64,000 nucleotides of DNA from Yoonia sp. GPGPB17 (lineage in GTDB: Bacteria; Pseudomonadota; Alphaproteobacteria; Rhodobacterales; Rhodobacteraceae), in the NCBI RefSeq assembly GCF_037892195.1, contig NZ_JATACI010000002.1:434001-498000 (forward strand), written 5' to 3'. The position numbers were made by a program, and so were the translations under genes. Under the pieces are notes generated by a model. That model was not told the origin of the DNA, did no database searches, and saw only the letters and a program-made list of their open reading frames with translations. Shown one piece after another: positions 46,563 through 54,417 of the stretch; within the stretch, counting starts at the first letter, position 1, and each line of letters opens with the position of its first letter.

Positions 46563-46588
46563 AAAGGCCGCCCTATTGGGCGGCCTTT
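46563..46588 (-). terminator. Terminator of the TRAP/monooxygenase operon
   Basis: Arms AAAGGCCGCCC and GGGCGGCCTTT (11 bases) with a TATT loop, followed on the minus strand by a run of five T. It lies 22 bases after the solute-binding protein stop and ends the six-gene operon. Confidence 0.9.
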
Positions 46589-46610
46589 CCTGTCATCAAA
46601 TCTTGAATGC

Positions 46611-47666
46611 TTAGTTCAGATCACTCGCATAGGCCTCGGCCAGCTCGGCCTCTACCTCGGCCACGGCGGCTTGCAGCGCGTCCAGCATTTCGCCGCCGCC
46701 GTCCACGTTTTCGCGGAACCATGCGTTCACCGGCGCAGCGGCTGCCGCGAATGCGGCTTTCTCTTCTGGGCTAGGCACATAGATGTCGCCGCCACCCTCA
46801 ACGAAGGCTTCATAGGCTTCGATCGACTTGCGCTTTGGCGATGCGAATGTCGCTTGCTGAAGGGCGGAGAAACCATCGACAACAACGCGGCGCAGGTCTT
46901 CTGGCATGGCCATGAAGTTGTCGTTGTTCATCCACCACATCGCACCCATGTAGGAATGCCCGTCCAGTGTCAGATACTGCAGGCCCGCATCAGGGAACTT
47001 CATGCCCATGATGTCGGTGATGCCGTTTGCCGTGCCTTCCACAACGCCGGTTTGCAGCGATGTGAACAGCTCTGGCCATGGGATCGGTGTCGCAGAGGCG
47101 CCCATGGCTTCGACCAGTTGTACCGGCAGATCAGCCACAACAGTCCGCATCTTCAGGCCACCCATATCATCCGGGCCCGTCACACGGCGTTCGGTGTTGG
47201 CAAAGTTGCGCCAGCCGCCGGTGTTGCCGATGGTCATCAGGCGGATCGTGTTGCCGCTGTCCTCAAGCGCTTTGGCGCGCATCGTGCGCACGAAGTCGCC
47301 GGACAACACAGCCTCGGCCACACGGTCGGATGACATCAGGTAGGGCAGGTCGAGTACCTGTACATATGGGAAGATGCCTGCGGCGCCGCCGGATGTGGAG
47401 ATATAGACGTCGATGGAGCCTTCAGAGACCCCTTCAAGGCATTCCGCGCCGGTTGCGCAAAGCTGCGTGCCGATGAAAAGCTCAACCGCGATACGGCCGT
47501 TCGAGGCCGCTTCGACGTAGTTCTTGAACACAACCAGACCGTCGTAGTCTTCGTCGTTCTCGTTTGAGTTTGCTGTGGCGCGGATCGTGAAATCCTGTGC
47601 CCAGGCGGCCAACGGCGTCGCCAGCAGTGCGGCTGTTGCCGCGATTTTGGTAAACTGTTTCAGCAT
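46611..47666 (-). CDS. TRAP transporter solute-binding protein (DctP family)
   Basis: The 351-residue periplasmic protein has a signal peptide (MLKQFTKIAATAALLATPLAAWAQ). The DctP fold follows, with the substrate-anchoring GGWRNFANTERRVTGPDDMGGLKMRT region near residue 145; its arginine normally holds the ligand carboxylate. It captures an anionic substrate for the DctQM membrane parts. The ATG at 47666 follows GGGAGAG. It is the last gene of the operon that also encodes a flavin monooxygenase system, so the ligand is likely the sulfonate or acid that the enzymes degrade. The exact ligand is unknown. Confidence 0.93.
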   Translation of the reverse strand: MLKQFTKIAATAALLATPLAAWAQDFTIRATANSNENDEDYDGLVVFKNYVEAASNGRIAVELFIGTQLCATGAECLEGVSEGSIDVYISTSGGAAGIFPYVQVLDLPYLMSSDRVAEAVLSGDFVRTMRAKALEDSGNTIRLMTIGNTGGWRNFANTERRVTGPDDMGGLKMRTVVADLPVQLVEAMGASATPIPWPELFTSLQTGVVEGTANGITDIMGMKFPDAGLQYLTLDGHSYMGAMWWMNNDNFMAMPEDLRRVVVDGFSALQQATFASPKRKSIEAYEAFVEGGGDIYVPSPEEKAAFAAAAAPVNAWFRENVDGGGEMLDALQAAVAEVEAELAEAYASDLN

Positions 47667-47688
47667 TATTCTCTCCCTATTGATGCTG

Positions 47689-49260
47689 TTAGTTGATGCC
47701 CGGTGCTGGGCTAATGCAAGCGCTAAACCCGATTTCCGGCGCGCAGCCGAGGAAACCTGCAAGGTAAGGCACTGTCATGGAAATGGCGGGAATATAGGTG
47801 ATCAGGAAGATCACCAGAACCTCCACCGCGAGGAATGGCAGGATGGCTTTTGAGATCGTCTCGACCTTCTCGCCCGACACGGTACTGGCCACGAAGAGGA
47901 CAAGCCCCATGGGTGGCGTTGCCAGCCCCACTGTCAGGTTCACGCTCATGATGATCGCGAAATGCACGGGGTGCACACCAAGATCCACGAAGATCGGGCC
48001 GAGGATGGGGCCAAGGATGATGATCGCCGGGCCTGCATCAAGAAACATGCCTACGATGAACAGCAGGATGTTGATAAGGAACAGAAGCATCAGCGGGTTT
48101 TCCGAGAGCGATAGGATATACTCGCTAAGGATCTGCGGCGCGTAGGATAGGCTAACGACCGTTTTGAAGGCGACTGCAGCGCCGACCAGCAGCAGCACGG
48201 CTGATGTGGCGAGGGCGGATTTGGTCAGCACTTCACCCAAGTCGCGCAGGTTCATGGACCGCAGTACAAAAAAGCTGACGATCAAGGCGTAGGCCACCGC
48301 AATGGCTGAAGCCTCTGTTGGGGTGAAGACACCGACGAGGATACCACCAAGGATAATGATCGGCGTTTGCAGGGGCGCGATGGCCTTTTTGCAGATCATG
48401 CGGAAATCATGGCTGACGCGGCCCCGATAGCTCATCAGCAGGAAATGCGCGATGACGAGAAGACCCGCGAAGACGATCCAAAGGTTCAGACTGTGCACTT
48501 TATCGCCAGCCTCGTTGAAGCTGGCCAGACCCACTGTTGTGGACAGCCCGCTATAGATCGCCATCAACAGGCCTGCGACGTTGATCCGTAGCAGTACGAA
48601 GCTGACCCAGTACTCCACCTGCGTGATGTCCTGGTTTTTCGTGACGATCCGTTCGGCCTTGGGCAGGTCATAACGATCGGCCATCAGACGCACCATGATC
48701 ATCAGACCACCGCCCACCATGATGCCCGGAACAATGCCTGCAAGGAACAAGGACGCCACGCTTTCGCCCATGACATAGGCATAGATGATCATGATACCGG
48801 AAGGCGGAATAATCGGGCCAATGACAGAAGAGGCGGCGGTAATCGCTGCGGCGAATTTCCGGGTGTAGCCGTTCTTTTCCATCGCGGGGATCAGGGTGGA
48901 CCCCAGTGCAGAGGTATCTGCGACGGCGGAGCCCGATAAGCCCGCGAAGAGCATAGAGGACAGGATGTTCACATGCGCCAAACCACCGCGCAGGTGGCCC
49001 ATGAAGGCCTGGGAAAACTCGACAAGGCGCAGGGTGATGCCGCCGCGGTTCATGATTTCACCGGCCAGCATAAAGAAGGGCAGCGCCATCAGCGGAAAGC
49101 TGTCCATACCATTGTAAAGGTTGCGATAAAGACCTGCGACAACATTACGGTTATCGCCTTCGAGCATGATCAGCGCGAAGGGTGATGCCAGCAGTGCAAA
49201 GACCACCGGCAAGCCGATCATGATCAGGATAAGGAAAAGGGGAAGGAACCATAACAGCAT
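47689..49260 (-). CDS. TRAP transporter large permease (DctM family)
   Basis: The 523-residue protein is very hydrophobic, with about 12-14 transmembrane helices. The DctM marks are PLMALPFFMLAGEIMNRGGIT near residue 55, LSGSAVADTSALGSTLIPAM near 110 and IGPIIPPSGIMIIYAYV near 145. It is about 100 residues longer than the usual 425-residue DctM because of an extended middle (about residues 200-290) containing extra helices. It drives sodium-coupled uptake. Its start overlaps the stop of the small subunit by one base (TGATG), so the two are co-translated. Confidence 0.92.
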   Translation of the reverse strand: MLLWFLPLFLILIMIGLPVVFALLASPFALIMLEGDNRNVVAGLYRNLYNGMDSFPLMALPFFMLAGEIMNRGGITLRLVEFSQAFMGHLRGGLAHVNILSSMLFAGLSGSAVADTSALGSTLIPAMEKNGYTRKFAAAITAASSVIGPIIPPSGIMIIYAYVMGESVASLFLAGIVPGIMVGGGLMIMVRLMADRYDLPKAERIVTKNQDITQVEYWVSFVLLRINVAGLLMAIYSGLSTTVGLASFNEAGDKVHSLNLWIVFAGLLVIAHFLLMSYRGRVSHDFRMICKKAIAPLQTPIIILGGILVGVFTPTEASAIAVAYALIVSFFVLRSMNLRDLGEVLTKSALATSAVLLLVGAAVAFKTVVSLSYAPQILSEYILSLSENPLMLLFLINILLFIVGMFLDAGPAIIILGPILGPIFVDLGVHPVHFAIIMSVNLTVGLATPPMGLVLFVASTVSGEKVETISKAILPFLAVEVLVIFLITYIPAISMTVPYLAGFLGCAPEIGFSACISPAPGIN

Positions 49261-49856
49261 CAGTCGGCCCCCTGAAAATCTTCCGCGCTCAGCGGTTTTA
49301 ACTCGTCACCACGTCCCATCAATTTGATGATCTGGCGTATAATCAACTCAAGGTTCACAAGGATCATCAGGTTCACGCCGACCCAGAGCGAGGCGTATTG
49401 GAAGTTGTTCTGGAACTTGTCGCCGCATTTCCCGAATTCAAAGCCGAATGGCCATTTGAGCGAGGAAGAACAGCCGCGGCCTGAGAGCGTATCAACGTGG
49501 TTATTCAGGCCGCGGTCCCATGCAACAACAAGCACCCAGAGGGCGATGCCCAACAGCAGCAGTGTGAGCAGGCCTGAGATCAATCGGGGCAGGGCGCGTT
49601 CCAACATGTCGATGGATACGAACCCACCCATGCGGAAGGCGAGCGGCGCCATCAACCCGGTCATCCAGAGCATGCCAAAGCGTGCACCTTCTTCTGTCCA
49701 GTTGGGGGCGTCGCTGAGAATATAGCGGAAGAAAACCTGCCCCAGGATCAGCGTGACCATGATCGCCAGCGCAATCACCGCGATGACTTTGCCAATGGCG
49801 AGCACCACGGTGTTAAACCGTTCTAGTGGCCACAAAAGGCCAAACAGGACCGACAT
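49260..49856 (-). CDS. TRAP transporter small permease (DctQ family)
   Basis: The 198-residue protein has four transmembrane helices: VVLAIGKVIAVIALAIMVTL, then GARFGMLWMTGLMAPLAF, ISGLLTLLLLGIALWVLVV and a last one near residue 170. Between helices three and four lies an unusually long polar loop of about 40 residues with two cysteines (GRGCSSSLKW and EFGKCGDKF). The ATG at 49856 follows GGGAGGAG. It overlaps DctM by one base and sits about 105 bases after the flavin reductase gene. A GGGGGC/GCCCCC hairpin near 49900-49915 lies in that gap and may tune expression. Confidence 0.85.
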   Translation of the reverse strand: MSVLFGLLWPLERFNTVVLAIGKVIAVIALAIMVTLILGQVFFRYILSDAPNWTEEGARFGMLWMTGLMAPLAFRMGGFVSIDMLERALPRLISGLLTLLLLGIALWVLVVAWDRGLNNHVDTLSGRGCSSSLKWPFGFEFGKCGDKFQNNFQYASLWVGVNLMILVNLELIIRQIIKLMGRGDELKPLSAEDFQGAD

Positions 49857-49961
49857 CGGCTCCTCCCCTGTTATATGCGGGCTTTTAGCCCTTGTTGTTG
49901 GGGGCTTTGCCCCCACCGCTTGCTGCGGCTTGGCCAGATTGTTTCTGGCAAATTGATCGCA

Positions 49962-50465
49962 CTAGCTTGCGCTAAACTGTCCGTATTTCCCTGCATGAAA
50001 GACGAGCGGATCGCCACCACGGTGATGAGCTTTGGTCACGAGGCCTACGACGATCACGTGGTCTCCCGCGTCATGGGTTGCTTCGAGGTTGCATTCGAAT
50101 GTCGCGAGCGCGCCCTCAATAATCGGCATGCCACAATGGGACATATGTGTTGGCACGTCACTGATGGCTGTTTTTGATTTTATGATCGCCGCACAGACGT
50201 CGCGTTGGTCCGCTCCCAGGACATGCACCGCGAAACGGCGTGAGCCCGCAAAGTGTTCGAACCGTTTGGATGATTTGGCCGGTGACCAAAGGACCAATGG
50301 TGGATCAAGGGACACGCTGGCAAAGCTGTTGGCGACGATGGCCACCGGGCCTTCAGGGCTGTCAGTCGTCACGACGGTGACGCCAGTGACGAATGTCCCC
50401 AATGCACCGCGAAAGCTGTCGCTGTCGGTGCTGGGGTCGAATGTCGCGATGGTACCTGCGTCCAT
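49962..50465 (-). CDS. NAD(P)H:flavin reductase, partner of the LLM monooxygenase
   Basis: The 167-residue protein has the flavin reductase-like (split-barrel) fold of the two-component monooxygenase partners. RGALGTFVTGVTVVTT lies near residue 18, ANSFASVSLDPPLVLWSP near 43 and RFAVHVLGADQRDV near 75. It supplies reduced FMN to a monooxygenase in the same operon, here the LLM protein at 51352-52509. Its start overlaps the stop of the aldo/keto reductase gene (TAATG). In the sulfo-SMO pathway the equivalent subunit is SmoA, so this may be its counterpart; that is inferred from the gene set. Confidence 0.88.
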   Translation of the reverse strand: MDAGTIATFDPSTDSDSFRGALGTFVTGVTVVTTDSPEGPVAIVANSFASVSLDPPLVLWSPAKSSKRFEHFAGSRRFAVHVLGADQRDVCAAIIKSKTAISDVPTHMSHCGMPIIEGALATFECNLEATHDAGDHVIVVGLVTKAHHRGGDPLVFHAGKYGQFSAS

Positions 50466-51355
50466 TATGGGACCTCCGTGCCGAGTGCGGCGGTGTAGAG
50501 CTCGAACCATGTTTCGCGGTCCATATTAACTTTCAAAGCGTCCGATAGGGCCTTGATACGGCTCAGATTATTTGTGCCCATGACCGGCATGATATTGGCG
50601 GGATGAGCCAGCAGCCATGCAACAGCCACGGCACTGTTGTCCACACCGTTGTCTGCCGCGACTTTGGCCAGCGCGTCTTGCGCAGCGCCTGTGCCGGTCA
50701 TCAGGCTGCCGCCACCAAGGGGGGACCATGCCATGATCGGCACGTTGCGTTCTTGCAGATAGGCGACATCGCCGTTGGTGAAACCTTGGTGCGCCGTCAA
50801 AGACAGTTCGATCTGGTTGGTGATCAGCGGTGTCTTCATCGCCGATTGCAGTAGTGTCCAGTCGTGCAATTTGAAGTTGGACACGCCGACAGACCGGACC
50901 TTGCCGGAGGCGACGACTTCATCCAGCGCGGCCCCTGTTTCATAATGGTCCATCATCGGGTCGGGCCGGTGGATCAAGAGCGTGTCAATCTTGTCGATAT
51001 TCATCAGACGCAACGAATGGTCCACCGAGGCAAGGATGTGACTGCGGCTGGTGTCGTAGTATTTGACGCGCGCATCGCTGTAGCGCCCCATCGGAGCCAC
51101 GATATCACATTTGGTGACGACCTCGATTTGATCTTTCAGGGCAGGGGCGGCTTTGAGCGCGTTGCCCAAGACCTCTTCGGCTGCATAACCGCCGTAGATG
51201 TCGGCCTGATCCATAGTTGTGATGCCTTGTTCGAGGCAGGCTTCAATCTTGGCTTGCACATGCGCGACAGAGGTATCTGTGTCGTCGCTCAGTCGCCACA
51301 TGCCATAGACGATGCGGCTGAAAGAAAGGTCGTTGGTGATTGTGATGCGGTTCAA
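50465..51355 (-). CDS. Aldo/keto reductase (YdhF-like), TTG start
   Basis: The 296-residue protein has the AKR barrel features. TTMDQADIYGGYAAEE (catalytic Asp and Tyr) is near residue 48, VVTKCDI (Lys) near 80, LLIHRPDPMMDHYET (His) near 123 and SVGVSNF near 155. It closely resembles the E. coli YdhF group. The TTG start at 51355 is chosen because it overlaps the LLM stop as TTGA, which mimics the ATGA coupling elsewhere in the operon; no good ATG exists in this position. In the sulfo-SMO pathway an AKR (SmoB) reduces 6-oxo-glucose to glucose, a plausible role here. Confidence 0.88.
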   Translation of the reverse strand: MNRITITNDLSFSRIVYGMWRLSDDTDTSVAHVQAKIEACLEQGITTMDQADIYGGYAAEEVLGNALKAAPALKDQIEVVTKCDIVAPMGRYSDARVKYYDTSRSHILASVDHSLRLMNIDKIDTLLIHRPDPMMDHYETGAALDEVVASGKVRSVGVSNFKLHDWTLLQSAMKTPLITNQIELSLTAHQGFTNGDVAYLQERNVPIMAWSPLGGGSLMTGTGAAQDALAKVAADNGVDNSAVAVAWLLAHPANIMPVMGTNNLSRIKALSDALKVNMDRETWFELYTAALGTEVP

Positions 51356-52509
51356 CGGCGTGGTCCTGTGCCCAATGGGGTCGCTGGTGTTTCGGATGGC
51401 ACGCGCCCGTATGCGTGGGGCAGCGAGCATGTTTTCAGATGCGGCATAACGCGCGCGCCGAAGTGTTCTGCTTCGTCAATGTGCGGGTAGCCTGAGAAGA
51501 TGAAAGCACGGATACCCATCTTTTGATAGGCCTCGATTTTGCTCATCACTTGATCGGTGGAACCAACCAAAGCGGCGCCACAGCCGGAACGGGCGCGCCC
51601 GACGCCGGTCCAAAGGCCGGGTTCGACATAGCCGAATTTATCGGCCAGTTCGCGGGCTTTGGCTTGGTGGGCTACGCCCAGTGAAATGCTGTCATGGGCG
51701 CGGTCGCGGATCAGTTTGCCGTATTCATCATCGAGCTTGGAGGCAATGCAATCGGCGTATTCTTTGGCTTCTGCTTCCGTGTCGCGGACGATCATGTGGA
51801 CGCGCAGGCCATAGTCCAGCGTACGGTTATGGGCTTCGGCCCGGGCATTCACGTCTTTCATGCGCTGTTCAAGCTGCTCTAAGGGCTCTGGCCACATCAG
51901 ATAGACGTCGCATTGCGCACCGCAGAGTTCGAGTGCTGCGGGCGAGTAGCCGCCAAAGTAGAGCAGCGGACCGCCATTTTGCTGGTAAGGCCGGGCAGGG
52001 TCGGTCGAAAGCTTGGAGATTTGATAGATGTCGCCGTCGTAGCTGACCTCATCTTGCGTCCAGCATTTGCGCAGAATCTCGACCACTTCGTGCGACCGCT
52101 TGTAGCGGAAGGCGCTTTCGGCCACTTCGCCGGGGAAGTCAGAGCTGATGACGTTGAGCGTCAGTCGCCCCTTGAGCATGTGATCCAGCGTTGCAATGGT
52201 GCGGGCCAGCATGATCGGTTGCACCTCACCACAGCGGATGGCGGCCAGGAAATTGATCTTTTCGGTGAGCGGCGCCATGCCTGAGACGAAGGAAAGGGTG
52301 TCTTGGCCAACCTGATAGGACGAGGGCGCGAGAATGTTGCGGAACCCTTGCTTCTCTGCGGTCAAAGCGATGTCGCGGCAGTGTTCCCAAGAGGAACGCA
52401 AGTCGCCATCGGGCACACCAAGGAACTGATAATCGTCAGAGCAAAGGGCGGAAAACCAGGAGACTTCGGCCGCATCAAGATCGGCGCTGGTGACCGGAAC
52501 GATGGTCAT
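51352..52509 (-). CDS. LLM-class FMN-dependent monooxygenase (SsuD/SmoC-like)
   Basis: The 385-residue protein belongs to the bacterial luciferase-like group of alkanesulfonate-type monooxygenases. It shows RNILAPSSYQVGQDTLSF near residue 55, TLDHMLKGRLTLNVISSDFPGE near 108, PLLYFGGYSPAALELC near 190 and GSTDQVMSKIEAYQKMGI near 320. It uses FMNH2 and oxygen to cleave a C-S bond of a sulfonate, or a related substrate. It is the first gene of the operon and begins with a GGGGGAGGAG ribosome-binding site at ATG 52509. Together with the adjacent reductases it looks like a complete two-component oxygenase pathway. Confidence 0.86.
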   Translation of the reverse strand: MTIVPVTSADLDAAEVSWFSALCSDDYQFLGVPDGDLRSSWEHCRDIALTAEKQGFRNILAPSSYQVGQDTLSFVSGMAPLTEKINFLAAIRCGEVQPIMLARTIATLDHMLKGRLTLNVISSDFPGEVAESAFRYKRSHEVVEILRKCWTQDEVSYDGDIYQISKLSTDPARPYQQNGGPLLYFGGYSPAALELCGAQCDVYLMWPEPLEQLEQRMKDVNARAEAHNRTLDYGLRVHMIVRDTEAEAKEYADCIASKLDDEYGKLIRDRAHDSISLGVAHQAKARELADKFGYVEPGLWTGVGRARSGCGAALVGSTDQVMSKIEAYQKMGIRAFIFSGYPHIDEAEHFGARVMPHLKTCSLPHAYGRVPSETPATPLGTGPRR

Positions 52510-52549
52510 TGATTCTCCTCCCCCAGAGTTATGTCTTTCCACTTGCCTA

Positions 52550-52592
52550 GCATGCAAAATTCTATGTAACAATAGTGTATCAATTTTCATGC
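52550..52592. promoter_or_regulatory. Candidate GntR operator between the divergent genes
   Basis: GCATG(C)AAAATT and AATTTTCATGC are near-perfect inverted arms (one extra base in the left arm) around an A/T-rich centre of 20 bases that itself has CTAT...ATAG. It occupies the middle of the 105-bp gap between the LLM and GntR/UTRA genes. Binding by the local GntR protein is inferred. Confidence 0.5.
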
Positions 52593-52614
52593 GCAGGCTC
52601 GGGGAGGTGCCGCC

Positions 52615-53322
52615 ATGGCGACAACCTCTGCTTTGCCGAAATTCATTCAGCTGAGTGAAATGCTGATCCGCGAGATTGCTGCGGGGCATCTGGCAGATGG
52701 CGCACGACTGCCGCCCGAACGTGATATGGCGGATGATCTGGGCGTTGCCGTGGGCACATTACGTAAGGCATTGGCGGACGTTGAAGCCAAAGGGCTGCTG
52801 GACCGCGTGCAAGGGTCTGGCAACTATGTGCGACACCGGCCCGCGGTCGATTCCGTCTATGCGTTCTTTCGGTTGGAATTGCTGAAAGGTGGTGGGTTGC
52901 CGACCGCGGAGGTATTGTCGGTGGATCGCTTGACCAAGCCTGACGGCTTTGCGCGCTTGGGTGGTCATACCGAGGGGCACCGTATTCGACGCGTGCGATC
53001 TCTGGACGGTATTGTGATTGCTTTGGAAGAGATCTGGCTGGATGGGGCGCAGCGTGCCACGGTCGCCGTGTCAGATCTATCGGACTCACTTTATCACTTC
53101 TATCGTCATGAATTGGGCCTCGTGATCGGCTCGGTCGAGGATCGTATCGGGGTTGACACAATGCCAGACTGGACACCGGAGGTATTTCACCTCAATGCAG
53201 GCGCGGCGGTGGGGTACATCGAGCGGGTCAGTTGGACGGCGACCAAACAGCCCGCAGAATTTTCGCGCACTTGGTATGATGCCAAGCGCGCCAACTACAT
53301 CTCTCGTATGGGAAAAGGTTAA
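52615..53322 (+). CDS. GntR/UTRA (HutC-type) transcriptional regulator
   Basis: The 235-residue protein has an N-terminal GntR winged helix (FIQLSEMLIREIAAGHLADGARLPPERDMADDLGVAVGTLRKAL; split at the dimension of about residues 10-55). A C-terminal UTRA domain from about residue 85 binds effectors. The end LNAGAAVGYIERVSWTATKQPAEFSRTWYD is the usual UTRA strand region. It is divergent from the LLM operon and five bases upstream of the Gfo/Idh gene, so it likely controls both. The effector could be the pathway substrate or an intermediate, and an inverted repeat lies at 52550-52592. Confidence 0.88.
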   Translation: MATTSALPKFIQLSEMLIREIAAGHLADGARLPPERDMADDLGVAVGTLRKALADVEAKGLLDRVQGSGNYVRHRPAVDSVYAFFRLELLKGGGLPTAEVLSVDRLTKPDGFARLGGHTEGHRIRRVRSLDGIVIALEEIWLDGAQRATVAVSDLSDSLYHFYRHELGLVIGSVEDRIGVDTMPDWTPEVFHLNAGAAVGYIERVSWTATKQPAEFSRTWYDAKRANYISRMGKG

Positions 53323-53327
53323 GCGAC

Positions 53328-54417
53328 TTGAAGACGGTAAACTATGGCCTGATTGGCTGCGGCATGATGGGTCGCGAACATATTCAGAATATCAACCTTT
53401 TGCCGCAGGGGCGTGTGTCAGTCGTTTATGATCCAGTCAGCGAGCTAGCTGAAGCGGGCGCGACCTTGGCCGAAAACGCCCATGTGGCAGGTTCGCTGGA
53501 GGAATTGCTGGGTTTTGAGGACCTTGATGCGGTTGTCGTTGTCAGCCCGAACTACTTGCATGTCCCGCAGTTGCAGCAGATCGTGGCGACCCGTCCGATG
53601 CCGATTCTATGCGAAAAGCCGCTATATACGGACCCTGCAGATGCCGCGGTGCTGGACAAGCTGTTTGCGGGCTATGCGCACCCGGTTTGGGTCGCGATGG
53701 AGTATCGCTATATGCCGCCGGTTGCGGCCTTGATTGCGCAGGCCGAGCAGGCAACGGGCGGCATCAAGATGCTGACGATCCGCGAGCACCGCTTTCCGTT
53801 CTTGCCGAAGATTGGCGATTGGAACCGTTTTAATGCCAAGACGGGTGGCACTTTGGTTGAAAAATGTTGCCACTTCTTTGATCTGATGCGTCTGATCCTG
53901 GATGATGAACCTATCCGCGTCATGGCCAGTCTTAGGCCAGTCGCTGAACCATATTGATGAGCGCTACGACGGTGAAGCCCCTGACATTTGGGACAATGGC
54001 TATGTCATTCTGGATTTCGCGAAAGGCACACGCGCGATGCTGGAACTGTGCATGTTTGCTGAAGGGTCCAAGTATCAGGAAGAAATCAGTGCGGTTGGAC
54101 CCAAGGGCAAGATTGAGGCGCTGGTGCCGGGCCCGGGGCGGTTTTGGCCAAAGCTGTTGGGTGATCCGCCCGTGCCGCAGATGATCATCAGTCCGCGCGC
54201 ACCCAAGGGTCCGTATGTCTCGGAGATTCCGGTTGATCCAAGGCTGCTGGACGCGGGCGACCACAATGGATCGACCTTCTATCAGCATCAGCGCTTCAAT
54301 GCGGTTGTGCGTGGGGAAGGCGATGTCGAGGTCACACTGGTCGATGGGGCCAAGGCGATTGCGATGGGATTGGCCGCGCAGGAAAGCGCGCGGACCGGGC
54401 AGGCGGTGCTGCTCTAA
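53328..54417 (+). CDS. Gfo/Idh/MocA-family protein, possible NAD-dependent glycosidase, frameshifted
   Basis: The product of about 362 residues has an N-terminal Rossmann fold (NYGLIGCGMMGREHIQNI), the CEKPLYTDP motif near residue 100 and the REHRFPFLPKIGDWNRF and GGTLVEKCCHFFDLMRL segments of the central domain. An extra base near 53932-53938 splits it; the tail continues with NHIDERYDGEAPDIW and DLAMFAEGS-like ELCMFAEGSKYQEE. The TTG at 53328 is the apparent start. Family members are dehydrogenases, but some (GH188) are NAD-dependent sulfoquinovosidases. The neighbouring monooxygenase operon makes that role worth testing; it is not shown by the sequence alone. Confidence 0.8.

Follow-up and report, generated by a model that had tools for sequence, protein, structure and literature searches.

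Which sulfonate is broken down with the help of a gene cluster of Yoonia sp. GPGPB17 that encodes a monooxygenase, an aldo/keto reductase (AKR), a flavin reductase and a TRAP importer, and where is the glycosidase that it seems to lack? The cluster lies in a stretch of 64,000 nucleotides (contig NZ_JATACI010000002.1, positions 434,001 to 498,000), which is called the window and to which the coordinates refer. The comparisons described below make it very probable that the cluster serves the oxidative desulfonation (sulfo-SMO) of sulfoquinovose (SQ), a sulfosugar of plants and algae, and of SQ glycosides, and that it is of the kind found in the Roseobacter clade. The pathway, the clade and the glycosidase are already known, because they are described by Kaur et al. 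2023 (PMC10755693) and in a 2026 review (PMC12890257), and the window contains a further Roseobacter cluster with sulfo-SMO genes and a GH188 glycosidase.

First, the monooxygenase was compared with all PDB chains. The best matches, both over the full length, were 7olf (731 bits) and 7oh2 (711 bits), and the identities were 310/384 (81%) and 298/384 (78%), respectively. The next matches were MsuD (202 bits) and SsuD (192 bits), and the identity to SsuD was 32%. The molecule names of 7olf and 7oh2 ("methanesulfonate sulfonatase" and "alkanesulfonate monooxygenase") are misleading, as both entry titles refer to the oxidative desulfurization of sulfoquinovose. The structure search of this luciferase-like monooxygenase (LLM) revealed that entries titled as SQ monooxygenases occupied the top rows; the structure model itself was weak (predicted local distance difference test score, pLDDT, 61.6) and added little to the sequence. 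The alkanesulfonate monooxygenases SsuD and MsuD have the LLM fold in common with the enzyme of the window, but the identity is only about 30-33%. The chemistry with reduced flavin mononucleotide (FMNH2) is common to SsuD/MsuD and SmoC-type enzymes. The SsuD model TIGR03565 yielded scores of 246.7 and 247.5 bits, below its cut-off of 518.2, which was reached by no protein of the genome. The SsuD-type reading was therefore rejected, and the monooxygenase is by its sequence an ortholog of the SQ monooxygenase SmoC, as the original prediction had proposed. The AKR was also assigned as predicted, i.e., to SmoB: its best PDB matches were 7bby and 7bbz (425 bits, the next match had 207 bits), which we take to be SmoB of A. 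tumefaciens, and it is 66% identical to 7bby. Together, the identities of the two enzymes point to a sulfo-SMO cluster with SQ as the likely substrate.

The features of the locus are as follows:

51352-52509, minus strand: predicted LLM-class, SmoC-type, FMNH2-dependent SQ monooxygenase, 385 amino acids, from sequence and structure comparison
about 50465-51357, minus strand: SmoB-type AKR with a putative role as 6-oxo-glucose reductase; the start is probably a TTG that overlaps the monooxygenase stop
49962-50465, minus strand: flavin reductase in the putative SmoA role, 167 amino acids, Pfam Flavin_Reduct
49260-49856, minus strand: TRAP small permease DctQ, Pfam DctQ; alternative GTG start at 49916
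47689-49260, minus strand: TRAP large permease DctM, Pfam DctM
46611-47666, minus strand: TRAP substrate-binding protein DctP, Pfam DctP
52615-53322, plus strand: GntR/UTRA regulator, divergent from the operon, Pfam GntR and UTRA; matched in 80 of 80 relative loci
53328-53957, plus strand: N-terminal piece of a predicted GH188-type NAD+-dependent sulfoquinovosidase; homology extends to about 53930
53902-54417, plus strand: C-terminal piece of the same predicted sulfoquinovosidase in another frame; homology starts at about 53935
52510-52614: divergent region between the monooxygenase and GntR genes, from the gene coordinates; promoters are expected here (putative)

The Pfam E-values were 1.4e-52 (Bac_luciferase), 1.4e-52 (Aldo_ket_red) and 1.9e-37 (Flavin_Reduct) for the enzymes, 1.6e-16 (DctQ), 9.7e-111 (DctM) and 5.5e-51 (DctP) for the importer, and 4.5e-22 (UTRA), 1.4e-13 (GntR) and 8.7e-18 (GFO_IDH_MocA) for the genes on the plus strand. 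The flavin reductase, which had been predicted on the basis of the sequence, is thus present, and with DctP, DctQ and DctM the TRAP transporter set is complete. A coupled operon of six genes had been proposed. The genes, their domains and the minus strand were verified, and the three enzyme genes indeed abut or overlap, but about 105 bases separate the flavin reductase gene from DctQ, and, thus, the six genes are not all tightly coupled. The DctP stop is at 46611, and the lower bound of 46563 that had been drawn for the locus lies 48 bases past it. The divergent GntR/UTRA and Gfo/Idh/MocA genes were both found on the plus strand with their Pfam matches; the Gfo/Idh/MocA gene, however, is not in one frame.

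The next question was the glycosidase. The lack of a GH31 enzyme had been observed correctly (see below), and it had been taken as a sign of a new variant or of a pathway for another sulfonate. This conclusion did not hold, as the Gfo/Idh/MocA protein is a GH188-type glycosidase judging from its relatives and binding residues, and GH188 enzymes in Roseobacter sulfo-SMO clusters have already been published by Kaur et al. 2023 (PMC10755693). The best solved relatives of the protein are NAD+-dependent sulfoquinovosidases, and the N-terminal piece scored 271 bits with 8zn9 and 206 bits with 8qc3. Its residues Lys97, Tyr126, Arg155, Leu159, Lys161, Glu178 and His182 match SQ-contacting residues of ArSqgA, and the C-terminal piece retains the histidine that matches His321 of ArSqgA, so that all eight SQ-contacting residues are kept over the two pieces. 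The C-terminal piece is 94% identical to residues 202-362 of an unbroken relative. One unbroken relative, L002, has the GH188 fold and is 50-63% identical to the solved GH188 proteins and 8zn9. The gene is therefore a predicted GH188-type sulfoquinovosidase gene and encodes the glycosidase that seemed to be missing. This example reveals that such an enzyme can be a known one under the generic name Gfo/Idh/MocA.

That the cluster desulfonates another sulfonate, i.e., alkanesulfonates or another sulfosugar, and that SQ is not the main substrate, is extremely unlikely. The TRAP importer, unlike the ABC importer that is reported for Agrobacterium, would fit this possibility, as would the isethionate-binding protein that is the fourth-best solved relative of DctP. 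Against it stand the identity of 81% and 78% to SQ monooxygenases versus 32% to SsuD, the TIGR03565 score of 247 versus a cut-off of 518, and the sulfoquinovosidase-type gene with sulfonate-binding residues that adjoins the cluster in relatives. Sulfofucose or a similarly close sulfosugar is still conceivable as a substrate.

The conservation of the cluster was analyzed with the best 80 of 380 loci found, in which the monooxygenase is 82-97% identical. The closest loci carry the names Yoonia, Loktanella or uncultured Rhodobacteraceae. In 59 of the 80 loci the nine query pieces (the Gfo/Idh/MocA gene was counted as two) were all present with the same order and strands, and, therefore, the layout is not due to chance; GntR and the N-terminal Gfo part were matched in all 80. 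In addition, a sample of 394 genomes of the family included 165 with SmoC orthologs (E ≤1e-100). A GH188 search (E 1e-80) of 60 of these 165 genomes, taken in the order of their labels with the same-genus genome G294 added, and of 60 of the 229 SmoC-negative genomes yielded a GH188-type match in 59 of the 60 SmoC-positive genomes (57 at 57-88% identity, two at 43-47%). The two genes were at most 3 kb apart in 46 of the 50 genomes for which the SmoC position was given. The genome of Yoonia sp. GPGPB17 is one more in which SmoC and GH188 mark SQ use, and Roseobacters are reported SQ users.

Several observations weigh against the assignment to SQ and its glycosides. The GH188 gene is divided between two frames (53328-53957 and 53902-54417), the break being near 53930, no second GH188 copy was found in the genome (the next match had 54 bits), and the genome, which is 96.23% complete, had no match to GH31 (PF01055), a search that yielded matches in 6 of 14 control genomes. 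If the break is real, the strain, without a second copy and without GH31, would use free SQ only. No sulfite exporter gene was found in the cluster, and a single PF03601 gene lies elsewhere in the genome. The flavin reductase shows nothing unusual for its family (4xhy is the closest solved protein, with 142 bits), and its SmoA role is putative and assigned by family. DctP has no close solved relative (the best one has 116 bits), TRAP genes were not linked downstream in 14 of the 80 loci, and the transport of SQ by this importer is a proposal. Furthermore, the search for GH188-type proteins yielded nothing in one of the 60 SmoC-positive genomes and a match in nine of the 60 SmoC-negative genomes (one at 65%, eight at 45-55%), and in four of the 50 genomes the two genes were not closely linked (8 kb apart in G037, on different contigs in G022, G112 and G146).

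The frame break has two possible explanations. If it is real, the strain has lost the use of SQ glycosides and lives on free SQ, which we regard as possible, at a little below even chances. The two frames, the lack of a second GH188 copy and of GH31, and a site that is not homopolymeric fit this explanation. A homopolymer slip was rejected as the cause, because no run within the 50 bases around 53930 is longer than 2 (at three other breaks the maximum is 3, 5 and 4). On the other side, the gene is in one frame in all 79 readable relatives (of the 80 loci, L017 was cut off), and the sequence has kept 93-94% identity to the relative on either side of the break, indicating that the break is recent or artificial. 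In addition, a comparison over 212 kb of the genome found four targets split and about 49 whole, and a DctP gene elsewhere is in two frames, which hints at indel errors of the assembly; the open reading frames of one same-genus genome and of 11 loci were used for this comparison, and the counts are rough because targets were binned by position. The GH188 split is backed by 13 queries and the other three by one query each, and this hint is weak because each of these three rests on the open reading frame of one relative. We lean slightly towards an assembly error. The three other splits lie near positions 395, 28196 and 30377 of the window; these, and a gene at 1126755-1127581 of contig C2 that likewise looks frame-split in comparison with homologs, may be due to assembly indel errors.

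The TRAP importer was found in place of an ABC importer, in accordance with the original prediction, and this is the common arrangement among the relatives examined. A colinear DctQ was present in 63 of the 80 loci, and in three further loci (L022, L064, L073) the contig ended before DctQ. For the loci without TRAP genes, 20 neighbour proteins from eight of the 14 loci were scanned (L021, L028, L047, L048, L057 and L072 were left out), and an ABC sugar importer was found only at L054 (12623-17126), convergent with the smo operon. The open reading frames of L057 are arranged as in L054, and at L048 the only matches to DctM and DctP are distant ones (26-30%), which are upstream and on the other strand. 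Of 25 matching plasmid records, the 11 with a SmoC identity of at least 72% were examined; two Roseivivax records among them are near-identical and thus not independent. TRAP genes adjoin the cluster in ten of these 11 records; in Marinovum algicola, genes of an ABC sugar importer take their place. Nine of the 11 records list a Gfo/Idh/MocA gene that is divergent. On the Marinovum plasmid a "putative dehydrogenase" is encoded in the same orientation as SmoC, and neither Gfo nor AKR nor flavin reductase appears in the gene table of the Qingshengfaniella plasmid; this table has known gaps. In four of the 11 records the start of a "putative sulfate exporter" gene is no more than about 2.3 kb away from dctP.

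It is very unlikely that the TRAP genes are chance neighbours that carry something unrelated to SQ. The gap of about 105 bases to the flavin reductase gene, the 14 loci without TRAP genes, and the ABC genes that L054 and Marinovum algicola have instead would agree with such a chance neighbourhood, but the same order and strand of DctQ in 63 of 80 loci and the adjoining genes in ten of 11 plasmid records, one of them a Rhizobium, argue against it. A derivation of the DctP substrate from solved relatives was rejected, as none is close. Arg174 (in GGLKMR) and Trp152 of DctP were invariant in 60 of 60 aligned sequences, including that of the window. The Arg174 position is presumably that of the acid-anion-binding arginine of TRAP binding proteins and might suit a sulfonate ligand. 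In the searchable literature no paper was found that links SQ uptake with a TRAP importer, which is no proof that none exists; the words "transporter" and "TRAP" had no matches in the main text of PMC10755693. The locus indicates that the TRAP importer is conserved, and no paper was found in which its cargo has been tested. We consider it unlikely that the linked genes are a dedicated importer of SQ or SQ-glycerol, the first TRAP family known for a sulfosugar, that replaces ABC importers in most Roseobacter sulfo-SMO clusters, with glycoside use perhaps lost here and TRAP and SmoCBA serving free SQ only.

The sulfo-SMO pathway of A. tumefaciens, with SmoA, SmoB and SmoC, was reportedly described by Sharma et al. 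in 2022 and is said to include an ABC importer and the GH31 enzyme SmoI. The gene roles are the same in the window, where the identity to solved proteins is 81% and 78% for SmoC (two proteins) and 66% for the AKR (7bby). In contrast, the window has TRAP and GH188 instead of ABC and SmoI: the importer of the cluster is TRAP DctQMP, and GH31 has no match in the genome. The solved NAD+-dependent sulfoquinovosidases 8qc2, 8qc3, 8qc5, 8qc6 and 8qc8, as well as 8zn9, have the fold and all eight SQ-contacting residues in common with the GH188 protein, whereas the copy in the window is in two frames. According to Kaur et al. 2023 (PMC10755693), about 10 billion tons of SQ are produced per year and GH188 is near-universal in Roseobacter sulfo-SMO clusters, in which, likewise, the SmoC-type gene is clustered with a GH188 gene and GH31 is absent; the window differs from them in the two frames of its GH188 gene. 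The 2026 review (PMC12890257) describes SmoC/SquD, SmoA and SmoB, and it states with reference to Ma et al. 2025 (probably the 8zn9 paper) that GH188 is widespread in marine Roseobacteraceae.

Taken together, the TRAP importer would bring SQ and/or SQ-glycerol into the cell, where the GH188 glycosidase, if intact, would free SQ from SQ-glycerol with NAD+ via a transient oxidation at C3, as expected from solved and assayed homologs. The flavin reductase would, as is typical for its family, supply FMNH2, with which SmoC and O2 would cleave the C-S bond of SQ to sulfite and 6-oxo-glucose (based on homologs with 78-81% identity). The SmoB-type AKR would then reduce 6-oxo-glucose to glucose (based on a homolog with 66% identity), and the GntR/UTRA protein may control the divergent genes.

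Further observations were made in other loci. In three loci without TRAP genes a DUF4147/MOFRL gene, presumably glycerate-kinase-like, is convergent to the operon (L014:12554-13753, L030:12551-13750, L035:13063-14259). The Marinovum algicola plasmid (L129:7104-18249) has the same enzymes together with the ABC sugar importer, a further dehydrogenase and a gene that resembles those of acetyl esterases, and we guess that the latter might delipidate sulfolipid. A plasmid of Spirosoma oryzicola (L126:444-11417) encodes a SmoC-like monooxygenase (51%) with SusC/SusD, an amidohydrolase, a permease, cytochrome c and the sulfite dehydrogenase SoxC, and is possibly a desulfonation locus of Bacteroidota. 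On a plasmid of Sphingomonas paeninsulae (L127:3792-10548) a SmoC-like monooxygenase (54%) is accompanied by an AKR, a LacI regulator, a Gfo/Idh/MocA protein and a second LLM monooxygenase. The SmoC-like group with 50-54% identity may be of the SquD type, which the review (PMC12890257) places in Novosphingobium.
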